IMG/VR virus record: IMGVR_UViG_3300025120_014381
Location: 1 to 64,000 of that record
Source: a virus
Strand: one strand, 5' to 3'
Length of the DNA stretch: 64,000 nucleotides
The notes beneath the pieces were generated by a model. It was given only the letters and a program-made list of their open reading frames with translations. It had not been told where the DNA came from and searched no databases. This document shows, in pieces, positions 7,109 to 42,617 of the stretch. Positions within the stretch are counted from its first letter, which is position 1. Each line of letters begins with the position of its first letter. The translations under genes and the position numbers were made by a program.

Positions 7109-7816
7109 TTACGGCATCTCATAACTAATATCATATTCATACAATATTTCTTGCATTTTTATTAACCAGGTTGATTTGTACTCACCCGGGTCCGTTCTTC
7201 CTGGCATTAATGCTGTACTAGTGCTATATAAACTGCTATCTAACAAGTCTCTAGCATCTAATAAAAGTTTAATTCTGTGTCGTGCTAACTTACCTAATCC
7301 TTCGATTATTTTTGCCTCCGCGGCGACAAAGGGTTGTCCTCTTATTCCTTGTCCTCTTAAGATTTCATAAAAGTTCGGGTATATATCGCCCTCTCTTAGT
7401 CTGCGACGCACTTGTTCAGTATTCTCGTACTGGCTTATGTCTCTTATACGACCGTTGATCATTCTAAAAACAGTATCACCAAATGGCGGTAAAATTGCTC
7501 TTCCATATACATCACCACCGTAAAGCTGTCGTTGAATTAAGGGTGTGTTATAGCTCGGATTATTTTGATAGTATCTTTGGATCTCTTGGTTTGTTTGAGC
7601 ATCAATAAGATCCCGTTCAACCGGTTGACCAAACTGTCTACTTAGCTTTATTGCTGCATCAAAAAGTGCCATGTCACCTCTGTTACCCGGGTTAGGTTCT
7701 AGTTTGTGTGGTATTCCAAGTTGTTTTAGCTTTAACTTTCTTGGCCGAGGATTGTTCATTTCTTCTAGAACACTTTCCCTTATTAATTTTTTAATCTTGT
7801 TTTGTGATATCTTCAT
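7109..7816 (-). CDS. Leader-bearing protein of unknown function
   Basis: A 235-residue protein starting MKISQNKIKKLIRESVLEEM, the leader with LIRE-S. The mature part is basic, rich in Arg, Pro and Asn, with MALFDAAIKLSRQFGQPVERDLID and ILRGQGIRGQPFVAAEAKIIEGLGKLARHRIK. No family is recognised. It lies between the HAD phosphatase and the membrane protein of the kinase cluster, with start and upstream stop touching at 7816. Confidence 0.7.
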   Translation of the reverse strand: MKISQNKIKKLIRESVLEEMNNPRPRKLKLKQLGIPHKLEPNPGNRGDMALFDAAIKLSRQFGQPVERDLIDAQTNQEIQRYYQNNPSYNTPLIQRQLYGGDVYGRAILPPFGDTVFRMINGRIRDISQYENTEQVRRRLREGDIYPNFYEILRGQGIRGQPFVAAEAKIIEGLGKLARHRIKLLLDARDLLDSSLYSTSTALMPGRTDPGEYKSTWLIKMQEILYEYDISYEMP

Positions 7817-8370
7817 TACGACTCCTTGCTTTCACTTGCGTACTTTACACCCATAATAGTACCTATTATGCTAAACGAGTTAGTTAAAAGTATACCGAAT
7901 AAGTTGCTCCATGTATTACCAATTAATGTTGTACCTATTCCCGTATACATTGAAAACATAAATAATCCAGTTGTAAAAACTCCGACACCGATTATAATCC
8001 AGAGCGCGACTTGAACAATCTTACCAATTAATTCAAACTGTGTTTTCTTTTGCATTAAGTCCAAGTCTGTCAAAGCAGCGTCTTTAGCTTCGTCTGCTTT
8101 TTTGACAGCTTCTTTCAGGTCAGACATTAGCTGTTCATTCTCTTCTTGCGAAGCAATCAACTCGCGATTTTGAATTTGTACTTGCTTTGTTACCTCAAGT
8201 CGTTTCTTTCTATTGGTAATATCTTGTGACTTTGCATCAAGGAGATACTGCTTAAATTCTTCATCTTCTTGTGCATCGATTAATTTAATAATGTTGCCTT
8301 CCAAAAAAACATTGCGCTGATCTCCAATTGCAATCAATTGCTTTTTATCATTTTCACAAAAAATAATCAT
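7816..8370 (-). CDS. Coiled-coil protein with two C-terminal membrane segments
   Basis: A 184-residue protein. Residues 35-110 are charged and helical (KSQDITNRKKRLEVTKQVQI, LMSDLKEAVKKADEAKDAAL), probably coiled-coil. Two hydrophobic stretches follow: about 115-145 (IVQVALWIIIGVGVFTTGLF) and 148-178. It overlaps the receiver gene as TAATG and follows the histidine kinase, so it is likely part of the same module, perhaps anchoring or relaying the signal at the membrane. No enzymatic motif is seen. Confidence 0.7.
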   Translation of the reverse strand: MIIFCENDKKQLIAIGDQRNVFLEGNIIKLIDAQEDEEFKQYLLDAKSQDITNRKKRLEVTKQVQIQNRELIASQEENEQLMSDLKEAVKKADEAKDAALTDLDLMQKKTQFELIGKIVQVALWIIIGVGVFTTGLFMFSMYTGIGTTLIGNTWSNLFGILLTNSFSIIGTIMGVKYASESKES

Positions 8371-8807
8371 TATTTATATACTTTAAAAGCCGCTGTTCTA
8401 TTCTTATAACCTTCGTAATCATCTCTGAAGGCTTCTAAACGAGGCTCAATATCATCAGACTTTACGATCCAGAACTGTGCGCCAGCGTGCAAACTCTTGT
8501 TTATTTCTTCTTGATCAGCAGAAGAGCTTATGATCCCAACAACGACACCGTTACCATACTCATAGTTTATTTTTTGAATTAATTCAATGCCATCAAAGGA
8601 GGATCCGATAATATTTAAATCGACAAAAACACATTCAGGTTTTCCTTTTGAATCTGTTTTCCATTGTTCAAATAAACGTGCTGCTTCGTCTGAAGACGTA
8701 ATGCTTTGTAGATCGAGTGTTATATCTAATAAACTACACGCATCTTCAAAAACCAAATGAAATAAATTTTCATCGTCAACTAATAAAATTGAATTAATCA
8801 TGTTCAT
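8370..8807 (-). CDS. CheY-like single-domain response regulator
   Basis: A 145-residue receiver. The acidic pair is Asp11-Asp12 (LLVDDEN), the phospho-acceptor Asp63 (VFVDLNI), the switch serine about Ser94 (GIISSS) and the conserved lysine Lys116 (WIVKSDD). There is no output domain, so it acts by protein contact, as CheY or Spo0F do. Its start overlaps the stop of the histidine kinase by 4 nt, so the pair is a cognate two-component system. No sign of degeneration. Confidence 0.88.
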   Translation of the reverse strand: MNMINSILLVDDENLFHLVFEDACSLLDITLDLQSITSSDEAARLFEQWKTDSKGKPECVFVDLNIIGSSFDGIELIQKINYEYGNGVVVGIISSSADQEEINKSLHAGAQFWIVKSDDIEPRLEAFRDDYEGYKNRTAAFKVYK

Positions 8808-10042
8808 CGTATTTTCACCTTAATCATTGTACCGATGTCTAGTTTTTCAACAGACATTTGAAATCCATGTTCCTTAAATATGGCAACAGAAATGTTTAGT
8901 CCCAAACCTGTTCCTTTTTCTTTTTGACCTTCTTTTCTCTCATACGGCTGACTTAATTTATCAAAGTCTTTTTGTGACATACCGCGACCATTATCAATAA
9001 TTGCTAAATGTTTTTCATTTAACATTTCAACTCTTACAAATTTAGTTTTAGCGTCATTATATTTTAGTCCATTCCTTATCAGATTATCGATACCAGTACA
9101 AAATAACGCTTCATTTACCAACATTGTGGGAAGATCTTTAATTATAACTTGATCTGCATAAGCTGTCTTTTTTAAATAGTCTTTCAAAATATCAGCCATG
9201 TCATGCTCATTTTTTTCTAGTACTGCATTTTCCTTGACAAGATTAGTAAATTCAAAGACTCCTCTATAAACGCGCTGAGCATGATCTAATCCATCTTTAA
9301 TAAGCCTCAAAGATGTTTCAATTTTCAATTCTTTGATTTGTTCTGGTTTGATTCTACGTTCTAAGCTTTTGATGCCACGCGGAATGTAAGTATTAATACC
9401 ACTGTGCATGTCATGACGTAATATTTTTGCTGCATGTTCGAGGTATGTATTTTTGTTACGCAGTTCAAGTTGAGCGTTGTGCTCTCCTGTCACATCACTT
9501 GCAACATTGATTACTTGATATACAGCGCCACTTCCACTTTTAATAGGGTTATAAGAGCCGTAGAGCCAGACAACATCTCCTGACTTCTTTACTCTCTTAA
9601 ATTTATTTTTAATATTTTCACCGTTTCTTAGCTTTTTCCAAAAGTCTCTATACTTTTTACTCTTAACAATATCATTAGGGACGAAAAGCATATGATGTAA
9701 TCCTATGATTTCTTCTTGTGTGAAGCCTACAGCCTTGCAAAAATTGTTATTTGCTTTGACAACGTTTCCTTTGCTGTCATAGACAACAACAATGTTTGAG
9801 TTGTTAATTGCTTTAAGTTTGTCATTTATTTTTTGATTCTCATCTTTGTACTTAACATACATGTCCCAACCAAAAATAGCAGAAGCAGGCATGTAAATTA
9901 TAAACAGCATTATATTAAAAAGTGGGATACTGTAATTGAAGTGGATAATGTCAAGGTAAACAAAAGTTTGAGACATCATAAAAGCTATAGCTGTAAATGT
10001 TGCTAAACAAAAGGCTAACTTTGTTCTTCTTTTTAATTTCAT
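8804..10042 (-). CDS. Membrane PAS-domain histidine kinase
   Basis: A 412-residue kinase. Two membrane segments lie at about 8-30 and 38-58 with only a short loop between, so sensing is probably not by a large outer domain. A PAS domain follows (about 72-190, YDSKGNVVKANNNFCKAVGF). His210 in ILRHDMHSG is the likely phospho-acceptor. The ATPase domain shows the N box LIRNGLKYN (321-329), G1 DNGRGM (350-355) and G2 GTGLGLNIS (377-385). All catalytic boxes are intact. It phosphorylates the adjoining receiver by inference. Complete sensor kinases are rare in phage genomes. Confidence 0.92.
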   Translation of the reverse strand: MKLKRRTKLAFCLATFTAIAFMMSQTFVYLDIIHFNYSIPLFNIMLFIIYMPASAIFGWDMYVKYKDENQKINDKLKAINNSNIVVVYDSKGNVVKANNNFCKAVGFTQEEIIGLHHMLFVPNDIVKSKKYRDFWKKLRNGENIKNKFKRVKKSGDVVWLYGSYNPIKSGSGAVYQVINVASDVTGEHNAQLELRNKNTYLEHAAKILRHDMHSGINTYIPRGIKSLERRIKPEQIKELKIETSLRLIKDGLDHAQRVYRGVFEFTNLVKENAVLEKNEHDMADILKDYLKKTAYADQVIIKDLPTMLVNEALFCTGIDNLIRNGLKYNDAKTKFVRVEMLNEKHLAIIDNGRGMSQKDFDKLSQPYERKEGQKEKGTGLGLNISVAIFKEHGFQMSVEKLDIGTMIKVKIR

Positions 10043-10566
10043 TATTCTTCCGATTTAAAAAACTGTAAGTCTAAAATTAGTTCTACGTTGTTATCAATTA
10101 GAAAGTTTCGAGTACTTGAGGCAACAAAGTCTAAAAACCAACGTAATCTTTGCACTGTACACGTCATTTTAAAACAATATTTTTCTTGGCCACATTCATC
10201 TATAACAGTTCCGTTATACTGACCTATTAATTTCACTTCCCTTGCTACTTTCTTTATTTCTAAAAGACCATTAACTATATACTCATCATCAACAATATCG
10301 ACACTAGTTGATTTAAATTTAATTTCAGGATAATTTTCACAATCAAAAAACTCATCAGATTTTAAGTGAATGTCCCGTTCTGGTTGTGATGTATAAAGAC
10401 TTGCAACATCAATAACACATTCAAGCTTTGCATCACTTAGATCTTCTTTTTCTGAGATTATTGTTGATTCATAGTTGTTAAAACACCCACTCACAGATGA
10501 TATCATCATATGCTTTACTTTAAAAGAGATATCACTATGCGTTTGATCGATGATATATTTTGTCAT
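10042..10566 (-). CDS. YceI-family lipid-binding protein
   Basis: A 174-residue protein matching the YceI lipocalin-like fold: YIIDQTHSDISFKVKHMMIS at the N-terminus, the ERDIHLKSDEFFDCENYPEI segment and the INGLLEIKK-type strand (IVNGLLEIKKVAREVKL). YceI proteins bind polyisoprenoids such as ubiquinone precursors and are usually periplasmic; this one has no signal peptide. It is upstream of and touches the histidine kinase gene, so a role in sensing quinone or redox state is possible but inferred. Confidence 0.85.
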   Translation of the reverse strand: MTKYIIDQTHSDISFKVKHMMISSVSGCFNNYESTIISEKEDLSDAKLECVIDVASLYTSQPERDIHLKSDEFFDCENYPEIKFKSTSVDIVDDEYIVNGLLEIKKVAREVKLIGQYNGTVIDECGQEKYCFKMTCTVQRLRWFLDFVASSTRNFLIDNNVELILDLQFFKSEE

Positions 10567-11442: not shown

Positions 11443-11949
11443 TCATTCTGGAAACCAAAATTTAGTTCCCATTTGCATATACGCTGGATGCATAATATGA
11501 CCAACAACTTCGACATGACCTAATCCAAGTGCATGACCTAATTCGTGCTCGAGTAATAAGTCAAGATTATATGTACCAGGCCTGAGTTTGATTACTGCAC
11601 CCCTCATCCAGCGAAGCTGTGTATATCTTGCAGTTTGCCCTAATACATTTATATTGTTTAACCTGGCATCACGTCTTATGATAATAAACCCTTCTAGATA
11701 TTCGTGGGCGCATGTTTCTTTTGAAGGATTCATTTCGTACATTGCTATTGGAAACCCTCTAAGCGTCCAGTAGTTAATGGCTCTAATAACAACAATTTCA
11801 GGGAGAGGTTTACCATAGCAGTTTAAAATAACAGGAGGTTCTGGCCACACCCATGCTTGAAAAACATTTGCTTCGTAAACTCTTTTCATTCCTAGTCCTA
11901 AAAAGAAACCAAAAATTAATGTAATAAAAAGATTAAACTGTTTACTCAT
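11443..11949 (-). CDS. Matrixin-like zinc metalloprotease, membrane-anchored or secreted
   Basis: A 168-residue protein. Residues 7-22 (LFITLIFGFFLGLGMK) form a signal peptide or anchor. The zinc site HELGHALGLGH, about residues 136-146, is the full metzincin motif HExxHxxGxxH, followed by the Met-turn HIMHP. Short matrixin-type proteases fit this size. It should cleave proteins in the periplasm or outside the cell. It overlaps the vWA lipoprotein gene by 8 nt, suggesting joint export. Its role for a phage is unclear: degradation of host surface protein or superinfection control are guesses. Confidence 0.87.
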   Translation of the reverse strand: MSKQFNLFITLIFGFFLGLGMKRVYEANVFQAWVWPEPPVILNCYGKPLPEIVVIRAINYWTLRGFPIAMYEMNPSKETCAHEYLEGFIIIRRDARLNNINVLGQTARYTQLRWMRGAVIKLRPGTYNLDLLLEHELGHALGLGHVEVVGHIMHPAYMQMGTKFWFPE

Positions 11950-13528
11950 CGCCGCATCCCCAAACTGCGTATTCTATTGTTATTGTTTGCCCGGGATCTG
12001 GTATGTTTCTTTCGTTAAATAACACAGAGTTAGTGGACGGTTCATACACCCACTCATAAGTCAGCTGGCCATTAACTGTTACGCTTATTGTCGACTCAAT
12101 CGGGTCATTTTCATCTATAGCGAAAGATATTTGTGTTGTGACTGTGTTTGCAAGGTTCTGCATTTGTTGGCCCCAATCAGCAGCACATATTGAATACCAT
12201 GCTCCATTATACCTCTGGGTCATATCATAATAACCCGCGCCAAACTGTATATTACGATTTGATGATATATAAGGGAAATTACATCCACCTGGGTAATCAC
12301 CTATCACAGCAAATTGTCTCATTAAATCAATAGATAATTTAAAACTATCAAAGAAGTTTGTATACGATATCCAACCTCCTTGTGAATGATCTGGTTCATC
12401 AGAAACATAGATTATCACCATAGTTGCATTTTCTCTATAGTAATGATTTCCTGGCGCAGCATCTCCTTCTAATGCATATTTTGCCATTTCAATACCCTTT
12501 TCCATTCCGCTCCCCCTAATCCCAATAGAAGAAATTACATTTTGCACCCACAAAACCGGGCTTGGATGTGTTGAATCAATCCAAGAATATCCGTCATATT
12601 GTCTAAACCTTGCTTCGTCTGTTGTAATAACAGCAAGATGATAATCTGAACCGGTACTTTCAAATACATTCATAAAAGAGTTCATTTGACTACTAAGCTC
12701 TTGTTGAAATATATTCATTGATCCGGAGTTATCAACTACAAAAAGCACATCTAAAAGAGATATCTCTTCTTGAATATTCGTTTGTGTGTGCCAATGCTCG
12801 ACGTCTCCTTCGCCATACTGCACCACCTCTGTAAGCGGCAATACTGGATCGTTTCCTTCTATTCTAATTACACTTTCATCATAACTAATATCAATCGGTG
12901 TATATGAAACTAGAAAATCAACTTCTTGCCCGGGCATTAATTCCCACGGTGGTGGAGGTAAGCTTCCCATTTCCATAATTATGTCTTGCGGTTGTGTTAC
13001 CATTTGTGTGACGCTGTCCACCGTCAACACCAGATTCCCGTCGTTGCGTATGGTGATTCTTTCTTCGTTGTCACATCCTATACTTATCTGACCGTAATCA
13101 AAGACTTCTGGTGTTACTGTCATGACTGGTGCGTCACCAAAACCAGAGACAGGCAACTCATACTCATTTTCATCTTCATCGTTAGTAACAAATCTAATTA
13201 AAGCGCCATTACTTTCGAAAGTCTCAGGAATATAATACACGTTAAATTCTTGTGTTTCTCCCGGGCCAATCGTGTAATTTTCTAATAAACTATCATCAAG
13301 GCTGAACCGGTCATTACCTGAAACTAGTTCTGGGTAGCTTATAATTAATTCTTCATCACCCGCATTAATAACAGCAAAAGTTGCTTGTCCAGATTCTAAT
13401 CCGGACTGTAAATGTCCAAATTCAATAGATTCAGGATAAACAACTAATTCTGGCTCAGTTTGTATTACTTTGTTGACGCCGTAATCATTGCAAGAAAGAA
13501 ACAGTAAAGCAAATAGAATGTACCACAT
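11942..13528 (-). CDS. vWA-domain lipoprotein with HYDIN/choice-of-anchor-type repeats
   Basis: A 528-residue protein. A lipoprotein signal ends at Cys13 (LLFLSC). Two immunoglobulin-like repeats follow: about 30-130 (VYPESIEFGHLQSGLESGQA) and 133-235 (VTPEVFDYGQISIGC...), each with the x-P-E-x-x-x-F/D-x-G pattern of choice-of-anchor D/HYDIN domains. A vWA domain from about 258 carries the MIDAS motif DNSGSM plus YVSDEPD later. Such lipoproteins are common in Myxococcota-like bacteria. It would be a cell-surface adhesin or scaffold made during infection. Possible recent acquisition from a host. Confidence 0.85.
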   Translation of the reverse strand: MWYILFALLFLSCNDYGVNKVIQTEPELVVYPESIEFGHLQSGLESGQATFAVINAGDEELIISYPELVSGNDRFSLDDSLLENYTIGPGETQEFNVYYIPETFESNGALIRFVTNDEDENEYELPVSGFGDAPVMTVTPEVFDYGQISIGCDNEERITIRNDGNLVLTVDSVTQMVTQPQDIIMEMGSLPPPPWELMPGQEVDFLVSYTPIDISYDESVIRIEGNDPVLPLTEVVQYGEGDVEHWHTQTNIQEEISLLDVLFVVDNSGSMNIFQQELSSQMNSFMNVFESTGSDYHLAVITTDEARFRQYDGYSWIDSTHPSPVLWVQNVISSIGIRGSGMEKGIEMAKYALEGDAAPGNHYYRENATMVIIYVSDEPDHSQGGWISYTNFFDSFKLSIDLMRQFAVIGDYPGGCNFPYISSNRNIQFGAGYYDMTQRYNGAWYSICAADWGQQMQNLANTVTTQISFAIDENDPIESTISVTVNGQLTYEWVYEPSTNSVLFNERNIPDPGQTITIEYAVWGCGDE

Positions 13529-17313: not shown

Positions 17314-18063
17314 TTATTGTGCTAATTCTATTTCGTAAATATTTTCATCATTTTCGCTAACTTCAGATATACCAAATCGCATGCGAAGAACTAGTTCCTC
17401 ACGCTTAGTTAACGAAGTTAACGCCTTAACAATCCTAGCTCTGATTAGTTGATTATCCAGAATCTGTTCAATGTTTAGACTGTCATTGTCGGGTATTATG
17501 TCACCAAGTGTCCTGTTACCTTCTTCACCAATTTGCTGGTCAATAGACGCAACGCTTTTTGTTTTTACTGCTTCTAGCGCATTACGAACATGTTTTTCTG
17601 TTAAGCCAAGCGCTTCACAAATCTCGTCCATTGTAGGTTCATGGCCAAACTCGTCTTGGTACTCCTGCCTGAGTTGCCAAATTTTTCGAGCATTTGCTAA
17701 AGTATGGGAAGGAACTTTTAAGAGTGTGCTGTTTGAAGTCAAACTACGTGTGACAGCTTGTTTTATCCACCAACAAGCGTATGTTGAAAATTTAAAACCT
17801 TTGCGCCAATCAAATTTTTCAACAGCTTTGATTAATCCAATGTTGCTTTCTTGAATTAAATCTTCTAAGCTGCCACCATACTTGGCATATTTTTTGGCAA
17901 TTGAAATAGCCAATCTAAGATTGGATTCAATCATTATTCGTCTTGCTCTTAAGTCACCAGCTTCAATTCGTTTTGCTAATTCGACTTCTTGTTCTCTGGT
18001 CAAAAGCTTTGTGTGTCTTTTTATATCTCGAAAATACATCTCGAGAGAGGTTTTTGTTTCCAT
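17314..18063 (-). CDS. Sigma-70 family factor lacking region 4.2
   Basis: A 249-residue sigma factor; the start is the ATG at 18063 after GGAG, while the longer TTG start lacks such a site. Region 1.2 begins at SLEMYFRDIKRH, region 2 is intact (RRIMIESNLRLAISIAKKYA, DLIQESNIGLIKAVEKFD, FSTYACWWIKQAV) and region 3 follows (VPSHTLANARKIWQLRQEYQ, VASIDQQIG). The C-terminus stops after LTKREELVLRMRFGISE plus a short tail, so region 4.1 starts but the 4.2 HTH, which reads the -35 box, is absent. No frameshift explains it. Group 1/2 relatives are about 300 residues or longer. Confidence 0.9.
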   Translation of the reverse strand: METKTSLEMYFRDIKRHTKLLTREQEVELAKRIEAGDLRARRIMIESNLRLAISIAKKYAKYGGSLEDLIQESNIGLIKAVEKFDWRKGFKFSTYACWWIKQAVTRSLTSNSTLLKVPSHTLANARKIWQLRQEYQDEFGHEPTMDEICEALGLTEKHVRNALEAVKTKSVASIDQQIGEEGNRTLGDIIPDNDSLNIEQILDNQLIRARIVKALTSLTKREELVLRMRFGISEVSENDENIYEIELAQ

Positions 18064-18076
18064 ATTATTTATCTCC

Positions 18077-18097
18077 AATGTTTAATGTTTAATGTTT
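18077..18097. repeat. 7-bp tandem repeat AATGTTT x3
   Basis: Three exact copies of AATGTTT lie in the leader of the sigma mRNA, upstream of the ribosome site. Its purpose is unknown; it may be a slippage-prone regulatory spacer. Confidence 0.6.
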
Positions 18098-18110
18098 AGT
18101 TTGTATTGTT

Positions 18111-18139
18111 ATTATACTATGAAAGTGCGCAGGTTACAC
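18111..18139 (-). promoter_or_regulatory. Promoter of the sigma factor: GTGTAA-N17-TATAAT
   Basis: On the minus strand GTGTAA (18134-18139) is 17 nt before TATAAT (18111-18116). The same pair with the same spacing precedes Hsp20 and DNA polymerase III. The -35 part overlaps the loop of the hairpin at 18125-18147. Confidence 0.65.
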
Positions 18140-18147
18140 CTGCGCAC
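18125..18147 (-). terminator. Hairpin after hsp20, terminator-like
   Basis: GTGCGCAGGT and ACCTGCGCAC form a 10-bp GC-rich stem with loop TAC, 17 nt past the Hsp20 stop. The following T-run on the minus strand is short, so termination may be partial. Confidence 0.55.
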
Positions 18148-18163
18148 CCATAATTATTATTAA

Positions 18164-18571
18164 TTACTGTACAGTAATTGTTTTTGTTTCTGGTTTACGC
18201 TCTTGTAACAAAGGTACAGTGATCTGTAAAATACCTGCGTTATAAGCTGCATCGATACCATCAACGTTTACACCCTGAGGTAAATTCCAAGAGCGCTCAA
18301 AGGATGCATACTGAACAAACTCTTGTTGTACGTACTTTGTACGTTGTGACTCATTTAAATGTCCTTGAACACTGAGTACATTGTTTTTAATGTCAATTTT
18401 AAAATCGTTCCTTGCAAATCCTGGAACATATAAATAAAAATTAAAACCACCATCATCAGCTTGAGAAATGTTGCACTGTGGGTATACGTTTTTCGCAGTA
18501 CGCCTTGACTTGAGCCCTGACATGTCATTAATAAATTTATCATCAAAAAAATCATTTATAAAATACTTCAA
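18164..18571 (-). CDS. Hsp20/alpha-crystallin small heat-shock protein
   Basis: A 135-residue protein with the alpha-crystallin domain: FNFYLYVPGFARNDFKIDIK near the start of the domain, and AAYNAGILQITVPL, the A-x-x-x-N-G-x-L-x-[IV]-x-[VI]-P signature, near its end. The tail KTITVQ is an IxI-like anchor. It binds unfolding proteins and should hold virion or replication proteins for GroEL. Its own promoter and an inverted repeat lie upstream. The gene is separated from the sigma factor by a hairpin. Confidence 0.92.
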   Translation of the reverse strand: MKYFINDFFDDKFINDMSGLKSRRTAKNVYPQCNISQADDGGFNFYLYVPGFARNDFKIDIKNNVLSVQGHLNESQRTKYVQQEFVQYASFERSWNLPQGVNVDGIDAAYNAGILQITVPLLQERKPETKTITVQ

Positions 18572-18602
18572 ATTATCCTCCTCTGTTAGTCATGAAGTTA
18601 AT

Positions 18603-18622
18603 ACTAGCGTATACTAGCTAGT
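18603..18622. promoter_or_regulatory. Inverted repeat at the hsp20 transcription start
   Basis: ACTAGC and GCTAGT flank an 8-nt spacer. The expected start for the promoter at 18629-18657 falls at about 18622, so this repeat would cover +1 to +20, a classical operator position. It is not the CIRCE sequence. Confidence 0.45.
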
Positions 18623-18628
18623 GTATTA

Positions 18629-18657
18629 ATAATAATCACAGTTTTTTATATTTACAC
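18629..18657 (-). promoter_or_regulatory. Promoter of hsp20: GTGTAA-N17-TATTAT
   Basis: On the minus strand GTGTAA (18652-18657) and TATTAT (18629-18634) are separated by 17 nt, as in the sigma and polymerase promoters. Confidence 0.6.
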
Positions 18658-18673
18658 CCCTTTTTTAAAAAAA

Positions 18674-19012
18674 TTAAAAAATAAGTTTCTTGCCTTTCAT
18701 TGTTATGTTTCTCTTGTTGAAAGATTGCACAGCAACAGTTTTTACGCCTGGTAATTTCTTCACCAAGTTCGATACATTCTTTAAACTCTGATATATTTCG
18801 TCAGACTGTGGTAAATATTTTATACTCAGTGGTAACAGGCCGTCGCCGTCTGAGAAACGTGCAACTTTATCTTTTTGGCCAACAACAGCGATACCAGGAA
18901 GAATTCTAATCCGCGTCATCAAATCAGGTACGTGAACTTCATTTTCTATCTTAAGTGTGACCACAGCTGTCGCTAGTTTTCTCTTTAATTTATAGTTAGT
19001 TGCATTTGACAT
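18674..19012 (-). CDS. Conserved phage protein beside GroEL
   Basis: A 112-residue basic protein with CGGAG at its start. The strands LATAVVTLKIENEVHVPDLM and PGIAVVGQKDKVARF, followed by a YQSLKNVSNLVKKLPGVKTV helix, suggest a ferredoxin-like alpha/beta fold. It is not GroES: no mobile loop or roof motif is present. It sits between GroEL and Hsp20 and may be co-transcribed with GroEL. Function unknown. Confidence 0.65.
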   Translation of the reverse strand: MSNATNYKLKRKLATAVVTLKIENEVHVPDLMTRIRILPGIAVVGQKDKVARFSDGDGLLPLSIKYLPQSDEIYQSLKNVSNLVKKLPGVKTVAVQSFNKRNITMKGKKLIF

Positions 19013-19045
19013 GTGAACTCCGAACTATTAATAACTATATAATAA

Positions 19046-20644
19046 TTAATCATTTTGCTCAGTATTTACTTCAATCATTGAACAATCAGCCATTAATAAC
19101 ATTGTTGCAGCAGAAACAGCATTCTCTATAGCACATCGTGATACTTTTGCAGGATCAAGTACACCCAATTCAAACATGTCACCAAATTTCTTATTACGTA
19201 CGTCATAACCAAAACCAACCTCTGTTTCTTTCAGTTCGTTTAAGACTTTATGATGTGACAAACCAGCGTTATCTAGTATCTGTCTAAAGGGTGTTAAACA
19301 CGCTTCTATTAACAAGCGATATCCGGAAATAAAGCTTTTATCATGTTTAGATATATCATGATCACCTAGCTCTTGTGCTAATCTATACAAGGCAATCCCC
19401 CCACCCGGAAGTACTCCTTCTTCAAGTGCTGCACGTGTGGCATGCAGTGCGTCATCTACCCGATCGTAACGTTCAATTAATTCTGATTCTGTTGCAGCAC
19501 CGACCCTAAGTATTGCGATACCGCCTGATAATTGTTGTATTCGATATCGAAGCAATTCGCGTTCATTCTCACCTAACCCTGGATAGTTTAATTTTTCTCT
19601 AATAACATCCATTCGCGCTTGTGTCTCATCAGAACGTGATTCATCTTTTATTACTAATGTTTTACTCTTATGGATAATCATCTTTTTACATGTACCAAAC
19701 ATTTCCGGGTCAAAAGAAGTCATGTCAAATGCGCTATCTAACACCTTACCACCTACAATTGATTCTAGATCAAGTAACAAGTCGTGTCTTGCGCCACCAA
19801 AACCAGGTGATTTTATAGCTGCAACTCTGAGTGAACCTTTAACACGATTCAAAACTAATCCTTGCAGTGCGTCCCCGTCAACTTCATTAGCGACAACAAT
19901 AATTGGTCTTCCCATTTCAAGCGCTACTTCTAAAGGTTTCATCAATTCACGAACTGAATTGAAGCTTCGGTCTGCCATGAGAATAAGGGGTTTTGAAAAT
20001 TCAGCTGTCATTTTATTTTTGTCTGTTACGAAATACGGTGACAAAAAACCTCGCTCCATTTGGAAGCCGTCTACGACTTGCAAAGAGCTACTAAACCCTT
20101 TTGCTTCTTCAACAATGACATGCCCATCTGGTCCGGCAGCTTCTATCGCTTTAACAATAAGCTTTGCTACTTCTTTCTCACCATTCGCTGATATTGTTGC
20201 CACTTTAAGTAAGTCACTAGTGTCACTCACTTCCTGTGAGGTATTTTTAATTGACTCAATTAAAATATTTCTTGCATAATCAATACCTTCTTTTATTTGC
20301 ATCACATCAAAACCAGCTATTTTATATTTTAACCCTTCATTATAGATGAACTGAGCTAATACTGTTGCTGTTGTCGTACCGTCACCAGCTTCATCAGCAG
20401 TCCGACTAGCTGATTCTTTTATAATTTGTGCCCCTAAATTCTCAACTTCGTCTACTAGATTAACTGCTTGCGCAACTGTTACGCCGTCTTTTGTGACAAT
20501 TGGATGTTGGCCGGGACGATGTATTAAAACTAACTTGCCCTTTGGTCCCATAGTTACTTTAACTGCGTTAGCTAGCTTATTAATGCCTTTTTGAAGTTTT
20601 GAATCTAATTCTTGACCAGAATATATTTCGCGCTTAATTTCCAT
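19046..20644 (-). CDS. groEL: GroEL-type chaperonin
   Basis: A 532-residue chaperonin with the ATP motifs VTMGPKGKLVLIHRPGQ, AGDGTTTATVLAQF and LPGGGIALYRLAQELG, plus an apical domain (FSSSLQVVDGFQMERGFLSP). The GGM-repeat tail of cellular GroEL is absent, the protein ending in acidic DCSMIEVNTEQND. No groES is seen in the window, so it either works alone, as described for some phage GroELs, or borrows a host or distant cochaperonin. Folding of capsid and tail proteins is the likely task. Overlapping small genes lie upstream. Confidence 0.95.
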   Translation of the reverse strand: MEIKREIYSGQELDSKLQKGINKLANAVKVTMGPKGKLVLIHRPGQHPIVTKDGVTVAQAVNLVDEVENLGAQIIKESASRTADEAGDGTTTATVLAQFIYNEGLKYKIAGFDVMQIKEGIDYARNILIESIKNTSQEVSDTSDLLKVATISANGEKEVAKLIVKAIEAAGPDGHVIVEEAKGFSSSLQVVDGFQMERGFLSPYFVTDKNKMTAEFSKPLILMADRSFNSVRELMKPLEVALEMGRPIIVVANEVDGDALQGLVLNRVKGSLRVAAIKSPGFGGARHDLLLDLESIVGGKVLDSAFDMTSFDPEMFGTCKKMIIHKSKTLVIKDESRSDETQARMDVIREKLNYPGLGENERELLRYRIQQLSGGIAILRVGAATESELIERYDRVDDALHATRAALEEGVLPGGGIALYRLAQELGDHDISKHDKSFISGYRLLIEACLTPFRQILDNAGLSHHKVLNELKETEVGFGYDVRNKKFGDMFELGVLDPAKVSRCAIENAVSAATMLLMADCSMIEVNTEQND

Positions 20645-33676: not shown

Positions 33677-34258
33677 TTACTCACGCATATAATTATGATG
33701 TTCTTGACATCTTGGTTCGTAAAGTTCTGCACCACCTACTTGAATTTGTTCTACTGATGGATCAGATTCAAAAGGTTCTACTTGTTTTACATTTGATTTT
33801 ATGTATGTGTATCTTGCATCTTTTTGGCAAACGCTGCATACAGACTTACACTTTATTATTCTTGTACAAAAAGGCATTAGGTCTTTGACTTCTTTAAAAG
33901 GCTCTCCGGCAAAAGACAGGTCTATTGAAGATACTACCACGTCATATCCTTTCTTGTATAAGGTTAAACATGCGGCGGCGCCACCCTCAATTAAAAATAA
34001 TTCGTCTATCAAAACGCAATCAACCTCTTTTTGCTCTGCAATCTTTTTAATTATCTCTTCACCAGTAGAAACTAAATGCGCTGGAATTTTATTGAAGTTA
34101 TGTGTAACTATCTCGCCAACTTGCGAGTATCTATCATCAAGGCTAGACTTGAATGCGATAACCTTCTGCTTTTGATAGTATCTTTTGTCAGCTTGCATCA
34201 ACAACTTTGTTGTTTTTGAACTAAACATAGGGCCGGTGTATAGTATTAAATCAGCCAT
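33677..34258 (-). CDS. tdk: Thymidine kinase (TK1 family)
   Basis: A 193-residue protein. LYTGPMFSSKTTKLLMQADK is the P-loop, VLIDELFLI the Mg-binding segment, and SSIDLSFAGEPF the substrate lasso start. Zinc ligands include CSVC. It phosphorylates thymidine. The start overlaps the epimerase stop by 8 nt. Confidence 0.92.
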   Translation of the reverse strand: MADLILYTGPMFSSKTTKLLMQADKRYYQKQKVIAFKSSLDDRYSQVGEIVTHNFNKIPAHLVSTGEEIIKKIAEQKEVDCVLIDELFLIEGGAAACLTLYKKGYDVVVSSIDLSFAGEPFKEVKDLMPFCTRIIKCKSVCSVCQKDARYTYIKSNVKQVEPFESDPSVEQIQVGGAELYEPRCQEHHNYMRE

Positions 34259-35261
34259 CTCTCAGTCCCCACCACTGGATTGTGAGCTCTAAACCTTCCC
34301 AAAATTTTACTAGAGGTTCATAGCCAAAATCATTCTTAGCTTTAGAGACGTCTGCTTGTGTGTGCATGACGTCGCCTGGGCGCCAATCAGCATGTCTAAT
34401 CGTGCTATTGAATTCTGAGACGAAATAATCCAACACCTCTTTATTGGAGACCTTGTTGTTACACGCGATATTATAACAGTCTCCAGCAAAAGGACCTTTA
34501 GCATTTGCTGATAAAATGTTTGCTGAAACTACATTATCAATATAACACATATCGCGTGTCTGGCTTCCGTCTCCATCAGAACGACACTCAAGATTGTTTT
34601 TAGTTGCGTGACACCAAGCAGAAACGGCTGTTGAATATGGGCTGTCTCCGTACTGACCTGGCCCAAAAACATTAAAATATCTCAAGCAAACAATATCAAG
34701 CTTGTACAAGTGCCAGCACATCTTTGCAAATTCTTCTATCGATGACTTTTGCCATGCATAAGGTGACTTAGGATCTTTAGAAGCAGTTTCTTTTGTCGGT
34801 AGTTCAATGGCACCTCCATAAACAGAAGAGGAGGAGGCCCAAACAATCCTATCAACAGCACCACTGGCTGCCTCAAATAGTTTTACTGTTTTTGCTATGT
34901 TAACTTCTGTAGTATACCAAGGTTGTTCAACTGAGTAACTGACTCTTGGTACTGCTGCCTGGTGAAAAATAACATCGTAACATCCTTGATATACAGCATT
35001 CAACACATTATCGTCCGCAAAATCATCTTGTATCACTAACACTTCATCACTTTTTCTTTTTTGATCTTCAGGGATTTGCATCATGTAAATTGTATAAAAT
35101 GAGCCGTTTGGTAAAACTCTAATATTTACCCCTTCCAACAATTCTAAATGGCCGTTTGACATGTCATCAACAATGTCAACTTGCCAACCTTGTTTTACCA
35201 GCTCTTTTGTGAGGTTGCTTCCAATAAAACCACAACCTCCTGTCACTAGTGCTTTTTTCAT
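34251..35261 (-). CDS. NAD-dependent sugar epimerase/dehydratase (SDR)
   Basis: A 336-residue extended SDR. VTGGCGFIGSNL binds NAD; WASSSSVYGG and the YAWQK motif are catalytic. RYFNVFGPGQYG and the TRDMCYIDNVV region match UDP-glucose 4-epimerase or UDP-glucuronate decarboxylase relatives. The product cannot be fixed. AAGGAG precedes the ATG. A partner epimerase is at 41628-42617. Confidence 0.88.
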   Translation of the reverse strand: MKKALVTGGCGFIGSNLTKELVKQGWQVDIVDDMSNGHLELLEGVNIRVLPNGSFYTIYMMQIPEDQKRKSDEVLVIQDDFADDNVLNAVYQGCYDVIFHQAAVPRVSYSVEQPWYTTEVNIAKTVKLFEAASGAVDRIVWASSSSVYGGAIELPTKETASKDPKSPYAWQKSSIEEFAKMCWHLYKLDIVCLRYFNVFGPGQYGDSPYSTAVSAWCHATKNNLECRSDGDGSQTRDMCYIDNVVSANILSANAKGPFAGDCYNIACNNKVSNKEVLDYFVSEFNSTIRHADWRPGDVMHTQADVSKAKNDFGYEPLVKFWEGLELTIQWWGLRDG

Positions 35262-41627: not shown

Positions 41628-42617
41628 TTAAAAATATTCAGTTAAGTCAATATTTCTCGCTTCTGCTTCTTCTAGATATCTTAATGGGTTGTAACCTTCA
41701 GACTTTAAAATACTTTCGAAAGACATTTTTATTCCTTGCGATAAACTTATTTTTGGTTCCCACCCAGTTATCCTCCTAGCTTTTTGTGATGACAAGATAT
41801 GATTACCCATATATTCTGTTTGTGGCAGCCATTCGATTGTATCTGCGAAACTCTGGCCACACACTTCATCCATTAGCTGAATGATTTCACCGGTGACTAA
41901 TGGCGTTTCAGCTGCGATATTATAATCGTCATTCCAATATTCTTTTTTGCTCATACAAGTAAAGACACCATCACAATAATCATTGACGTGTAAGTAGTCT
42001 TTAATCTTTGTTGGGTCAAGGAACATTTTGACTTTAGGAATTCCATTAAGCTTGGCGTATATCGTTTTAGCAATCAAAGAGTTCATGTCACCCTCACCAC
42101 CATATGCAAAGAGTGGTCTTACGATCATCCATGCGTCACTGTGTGACTTAACGATTTCTTCTGCAGATAATTTCTGACAGCCGTAAAAAGTGCTCGGTCC
42201 TCGATCTGAATCCTCAACGATAGCTGTTTCTTGATATTTGGGAGTATCATAAATAACTGTAGTACCCATATAACAGACAGGAATTCCGCACTTCTTTGCA
42301 GCACGACAGATATTAAAAGTACCCTGGACGTTAGTAAGTGTTGATTCTTTTGCATTTAGCGCGACGACATCAGTACCTACAACTGCTGCGTTATGGATGA
42401 CATAGTCAATATCGTTGACTTTAAAGAATGCTATCCACGCTTCTTCTGAATTACGATGAACACAAGGCTCACCTTTTTCCGTCGTAAACTGTGCCACAAA
42501 TGCGGCATCTTCGTTTAAATCGTGCACGCCCGATACAAAATGAAAACCGTGTTTTTTTGCGCGATTGGCTAAATTAGTACCTATAAAACCTTTTTCTCCA
42601 GTTATAAAAACATTCAT
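41628..42617 (-). CDS. NAD-dependent sugar epimerase, second copy (SDR)
   Basis: A 329-residue extended SDR. FITGEKGFIGTNLANR binds NAD; TVIYDTPKYQ and the YGCQKLSAEEI motif contain the catalytic Tyr-x3-Lys. SLIAKTIYAKLNGIPKVKMF matches the family. It is diverged from the 34251-35261 epimerase. Together with the phosphomannomutase it suggests a sugar-nucleotide pathway. Confidence 0.87.
   Translation of the reverse strand: MNVFITGEKGFIGTNLANRAKKHGFHFVSGVHDLNEDAAFVAQFTTEKGEPCVHRNSEEAWIAFFKVNDIDYVIHNAAVVGTDVVALNAKESTLTNVQGTFNICRAAKKCGIPVCYMGTTVIYDTPKYQETAIVEDSDRGPSTFYGCQKLSAEEIVKSHSDAWMIVRPLFAYGGEGDMNSLIAKTIYAKLNGIPKVKMFLDPTKIKDYLHVNDYCDGVFTCMSKKEYWNDDYNIAAETPLVTGEIIQLMDEVCGQSFADTIEWLPQTEYMGNHILSSQKARRITGWEPKISLSQGIKMSFESILKSEGYNPLRYLEEAEARNIDLTEYF

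Follow-up and report, generated by a model that had tools for sequence, protein, structure and literature searches.

A conserved histidine kinase, receiver and coiled-coil membrane protein unit of uncultured large phages, with a possible role in lysis timing

Gene layout and the kinase–receiver pair

The window, a 64,000-nucleotide stretch of DNA (positions 1 to 64,000 of the 73,420-base IMG/VR virus record IMGVR_UViG_3300025120_014381), encodes on its minus strand, in order, a YceI-like protein (10042–10566; PF04264, E = 6.5e-34), a PAS histidine kinase of 412 aa (8804–10042), a single-domain response regulator, or receiver, of 145 aa (8370–8807) and a 184-aa coiled-coil membrane protein, hereafter CC (7816–8370), with each gene overlapping the next by 1–4 nt. 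An earlier note on this DNA had described a complete kinase in an overlapping operon with a receiver and a coiled-coil membrane protein, and both parts of that description are borne out, the receiver being intact. The YceI-like protein does lie just upstream, overlapping the kinase start, as the note stated, but it is not a constant partner of the kinase; it was found at 3 of the 80 best kinase loci, which rules it out as a core partner, and also at L146, a near relative of the window, and is a local companion of the cassette.

The kinase is built of two transmembrane (TM) helices, a PAS domain, a DHp domain and a CA domain. The TM helices (residues 5–60; 9863–10030, minus strand), separated by a loop of ~8 residues, were assigned from hydropathy and from helices 5–29 and 38–82 of an AlphaFold2 model (mean pLDDT 90), which has a normal two-helix DHp and CA domain and returned HK853, LOV-kinase and NifL structures as Foldseek matches. 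Pfam recognizes PAS_3 (4e-12) and HATPase_c (1.7e-12), the latter in all 52 kinase homologues. The predicted phosphoacceptor His210 (codon 9413–9415, minus strand), which lies within YLEHAAKILRHDMHSGINTYIPRG, is invariant in these 52 proteins, and the N box (N320, N324), the G1 box (DNGRG, 350–354) and the G2 box (GTGLGLN, 377–383) are essentially invariant across the homologues. These intact catalytic motifs give no sign of the inactive kinase against which the earlier note had cautioned. The H-box helix was matched by Pfam HisKA models in none of the 52 homologues, which explains why a HisKA search of the window's own record came back empty. The nearest solved relative of the PAS domain (residues 84–185; 9488–9793, minus strand) is that of the redox sensor MmoS (3ewk; rmsd 1.7 Å), a PAS of the FAD redox-sensing kind to which NifL and Aer also belong, and because of this likeness, together with the two TM helices and short loop beside the domain, redox or membrane state is a reasonable guess for the signal. 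Two TM helices with so short a loop recall the intramembrane-sensing kinases, yet this protein has a PAS domain as well, and several homologues have no TM helices and more PAS domains. At L049, L054 and similar loci (~6–11.4 kb) two kinase genes precede one receiver, an arrangement that suggests several inputs to one output.

The receiver (PF00072, 2.8e-9) carries the active-site residues D11, D12, D63, S94 and K116, invariant in 27 homologues, with Asp63 (codon 8619–8621, minus strand) as the predicted phosphorylation site, and it has no output domain. Receivers usually present a Lys-Pro pair, in which the Pro is usual and non-essential; all aligned viral members instead have Lys116-Ser117, with the family-defining active-site residues all present. 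Among the three cassette proteins the receiver shows the highest conservation. Measured against L146, the kinase has a dN/dS of ~0.05 and the receiver one of ~0.02, rough figures given that dS is saturated, and on the evidence of the sequences both genes are under purifying selection. We consider it nearly certain that the kinase and receiver form a real, conserved phage system.

Several other features of the minus strand were recorded. An IscU/NifU-like iron-sulphur scaffold adjoins a ferredoxin-like protein (1674–2307; by sequence reading), and a tmRNA gene (tag ANNNSHFDSVAIAA) occupies 2323–2708. Several ORFs between 2756 and 7816, and others at L146, L106 and L001, begin with a leader of the type MKITRRQLRKLISEA, common to many neighbour proteins; this leader is reminiscent of the one that targets T4 internal proteins to the capsid, and it may flag proteins packed in the virion. 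The stretch 11443–13528 encodes a VWA lipoprotein containing HYDIN/ASH domains and a metallopeptidase of the M10 type, both also found next to the cassette at L146, L106 and, in part, L122; in the window's clade the cassette adjoins a fibre-like gene, the VWA lipoprotein and the metallopeptidase. A stress and transcription cluster (17314–20644) comprises GroEL, called by PHROGs, and sigma-70-like, Hsp20-like and GroES-like genes, called by sequence reading, and the genes at 34251–35261 and 41628–42617 both match phrog_540, a nucleotide-sugar epimerase. Terminase and tail-sheath searches of the window's own 73 kb record gave no match; the phage identity of the window rests on the IMG/VR classification, on phage-type genes (a DnaE-like polymerase, endolysins) and on its cassette-bearing relatives.

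Distribution of the three-gene unit and its bacterial copies

Phage-borne two-component systems had been called rare in the earlier note, a description at odds with the kinase matches in at least 587 IMG/VR contigs, the best 80 of which share 46–58% identity over nearly the full protein or its catalytic part. Searches with the receiver reached 503 viral contigs and searches with CC at least 481, and the cassette is common in uncultured phages. Cultured phages offered no useful relatives: the 50,697 phage records of INPHARED yielded a single kinase match, confined to the PAS region, and no match to the receiver or CC. The carrier contigs extend to 430 kb, and among 17 records tested a terminase was matched in 6 and a sheath in 5. 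Because relatives of the cassette sit in contigs with terminase and sheath genes, we reject the reading, also raised in the note, that the operon lies on an integrated host segment.

The kinase, the receiver and CC travel together. Each of the best 80 kinase loci has the receiver, at 65–84% identity, and 76 have CC; the remaining four contigs stop within ~75 bases of the receiver end or inside the receiver. Across 236 receiver loci, with 155 distinct receivers, the order kinase–receiver–CC on one strand is nearly constant while the outer genes differ in kind and strand, and where the genes adjoin, gaps of 20 nt or less separate kinase from receiver in 141 of 148 cases and receiver from CC in 132 of 135, the commonest spacing being –4 nt. 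A three-gene unit is therefore well supported. The only common break in the order is the presence of leader-type or other proteins between cassette genes (L005, 9209–10834; L106, 6429–6992; L122, 6429–7975).

A scan of bacterial genomes from 84,980 species with two exact 8-residue patterns found three loci, L081, L082 and L083. The last has a full phage-type cassette, PhoH-like and other phage-type neighbours and a GC content of 32%, and was set aside as a probable misbinned phage contig; L081 and L082, set among ordinary Bacteroidota genes, are the only two convincing bacterial copies found, and receiver searches of 395, 291 and 246 genomes from their two host groups returned only these two genomes. 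L081 is 50% identical to the phage cassette in the kinase and 68% in the receiver, and its third gene opens with the N-terminal part of CC (46% identity over 91 aa) and continues into a second kinase core that replaces the TM part. As this N-terminal module precedes a kinase core, it would be the input end of the protein, an argument drawn from a single bacterial locus. At L082 no CC gene lies beside the kinase–receiver pair. An unrooted tree built from the kinase core together with the receiver pairs L081 with L082 (100/94) and groups the two with the viral L093 (100/96), and the placement of the bacterial pair with one viral lineage suggests exchange between viruses and Bacteroidota, in either direction.

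The coiled-coil protein and the neighbouring lysis genes

CC consists of a small N-terminal domain with an EGN motif, a long coiled coil (residues 37–120; 8011–8262, minus strand) and two TM helices, and its AlphaFold2 model (mean pLDDT 83, with a low pTM of 0.35) places the small domain on a single long helix that runs into the membrane and is followed by the second TM helix. Two or three TM segments occur in all copies except a few truncated ones. The second TM helix (residues 153–178; 7837–7914, minus strand; TWSNLFGILLTNSFSIIGTIMGVKYA) is the most conserved part of CC, with a mean column identity of 0.93 and 17 of its 26 positions invariant, well beyond anything in the remainder of the protein. 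The fold had no match among solved structures, and a viral library gave just an uncharacterised phage homologue. Comparison with known holin families produced sub-threshold matches only, the best being Phage_holin_9 (E = 0.005; 3 of 52 members), and at loci with a standard holin CC could not be the sole holin. All CC copies at the viral loci examined have the usual TM form, with no other form of output among them.

The length of the coil follows a rule. Between two fixed motifs, 128 of the 129 measurable proteins have 53, 60, 67, 74, 81, 88 or 95 residues; the exception has 106, and 25 further proteins were without one of the two motifs as written. To pass a signal along its length, a coiled coil would need to change in such whole-heptad steps, and the homologue lengths, differing by exact heptads, therefore suggest that CC transmits a signal and does more than anchor. 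Read from sequence in this way, the heptad rule is the strongest single clue to CC as a signal transmitter, and CC is probably the output of the kinase and receiver.

The commonest neighbour families of the cassette are lysis genes: GH19-type endolysins with a peptidoglycan-binding domain (a label drawn from a Pfam match below threshold, E = 0.003, together with sequence features), a holin (PF05105), M15 peptidases, amidases and lysozymes. Of 23 contig matches to GH19-type endolysins, 16 fall no more than 5 kb from the receiver, against 1.9 expected under random placement, as do 7 of 9 matches to M15 peptidases, against 0.9 expected; for Amidase_2 genes the figure is 0 of 19. These contig counts contain near-identical relatives, and the role of chance is accordingly understated. 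On a dereplicated tree a holin or endolysin gene lies within 4.5 kb in 28 of 58 rows, a fraction biased upward as rows "without" needed enough flank and rows "with" did not, and these rows comprise 18 arrangements and at least 13 changes, the neighbours including a holin and endolysins from four unrelated families. A holin gene directly adjoins the kinase at L247 and follows CC at L254. The L247 holin family was found four times in large contigs, each time ~2 kb from the receiver, in G005 (~2.2 kb) and in three near-identical L247-type contigs; the Pfam holin model PF05105 gave a single match over the large contigs.

The window's own clade does not follow this pattern: none of the five lysis families tested occurs near the cassette in its ten tree rows, and the window's endolysin-like genes lie at 42.7–45.5 kb and 62.8–63.7 kb, 34 and 54 kb from the cassette. 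The five families undercount such genes, since L139 and L150, loci whose receivers are close relatives, carry a GH19-type or transglycosylase-like gene (the latter called from a reading of the sequence) 3–6 kb upstream.

Proposed mechanism, alternatives and relation to known systems

We hypothesize that the kinase, held in the membrane by two TM helices that leave nearly no loop outside, uses its PAS domain to sense a signal, either internal or from the membrane, and, as its intact motifs suggest, phosphorylates the receiver. The phosphorylated receiver would then contact the N-terminal domain of CC, acting by protein contact and not on DNA, and the heptad-phased coil would relay the resulting change to the two-helix membrane hairpin, which may alter the membrane or the phage holin and thereby set the time or delay of lysis. 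That the cassette is a self-contained phage phosphorelay gating a membrane effector and timing lysis seems to us an even proposition, and the narrower claim that the output concerns lysis is just as evenly balanced; the suggestion of the earlier note that the system senses a state and times the infection is plausible. A broader and more tentative picture, which we put somewhat short of even, is a lysis clock in large uncultured phages, in which kinase and receiver would drive a new class of coiled-coil two-TM effector by protein contact without transcription, reading host redox, energy or infection state to advance or delay lysis, and in which the phage form may have arisen when the second-kinase output of a bacterial relay was swapped for a membrane hairpin, or the reverse.

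The same phosphorelay and membrane effector could serve another purpose, such as superinfection exclusion, protection of membrane energy or counter-defence, with the lysis neighbours reflecting the clustering of late and membrane genes. The window's clade, which has no adjacent lysis genes of the tested families and sits beside the fibre-like, VWA lipoprotein and metallopeptidase genes, speaks for such a purpose, as does the consistent distance of Amidase_2 genes from the receiver. It is harder to reconcile with a holin and endolysins of four unrelated families adjoining the cassette in many different arrangements, and the cassette matches no PADLOC model of anti-phage defence; we regard another purpose as possible, if on the unlikely side. 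A further alternative, which we think improbable, is that the receiver acts mainly on a target in the host (its phosphorelay, polymerase or motor), with CC serving only as a membrane anchor or localising factor for the kinase or receiver. Receivers of this single-domain kind can work through protein contact, and this one is unusually conserved, its C-terminal tail included, but CC accompanies the pair at nearly all loci, the conservation of its second TM helix goes beyond what an anchor needs, and its strict heptad phase implies signal transmission. Were CC instead a sensor, with the TM hairpin reading membrane state and the N-terminal domain feeding the receiver or kinase, the heptad phase would fit too, since it also suits signalling from membrane to cytoplasm; the position of the CC N-terminus ahead of the kinase core in L081, which puts the input there, and a kinase already equipped with PAS and TM helices make this quite improbable. 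That the genes are host regulators acquired without function in the phage, a view to which the two Bacteroidota copies lend some colour, is almost certainly wrong in the face of strong purifying selection, invariant catalytic residues and hundreds of viral copies.

Two-component systems have been regarded as belonging to bacteria, with phages making use of those of their hosts. In a broad range of large uncultured phages a complete set of kinase, receiver and membrane partner is standard, and CC is a new candidate family of receiver-driven membrane effectors. If lysis proves to be its output, the cassette would account for the way in which these phages time lysis from environmental signals, a question so far studied mainly in T4-like lysis inhibition, and would make that question testable with three genes in a laboratory strain.

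The cassette shares its domain order, catalytic motifs and receiver active site with bacterial two-component systems, and differs from them in the H-box helix outside Pfam HisKA, the Lys116-Ser117 pair, viral carriage and the fixed third membrane gene. Bacteroidota L081 likewise has kinase, receiver and CC N-terminus in three genes, but its third protein ends in a kinase core where the phage CC ends in two TM helices. Bacterial chemoreceptors and kinases contain heptad-phased signalling coiled coils whose length shifts by whole heptads only. CC resembles coils of the chemoreceptor type in changing length by whole heptads; it differs in having its soluble module at the N-terminus and a TM hairpin at the end, with no methylation or kinase-control tip.

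A phage two-component cassette is not described in the open-access literature searched, which is weak evidence, as subscription papers and preprints fell mostly outside its scope; its parts are of known kinds, and the combination appears undescribed there. The nearest report describes, in uncultivated pelagiphages, a histidine kinase that neighbours curli genes (PMC9599517); it is likewise phage-carried but is tied to curli (T8SS) genes, with no receiver or membrane partner mentioned in the portions consulted. Phage control of lysis through a holin and antiholin is exemplified by T/RI lysis inhibition in T4 (PMC11413866). The cassette is similar in that it would employ a small TM protein responding to a signal and in that its genes adjoin holin and endolysin genes at many loci; it differs in that the input to CC would be a phosphorylated receiver and in that CC is not recognizable as a member of any holin family.
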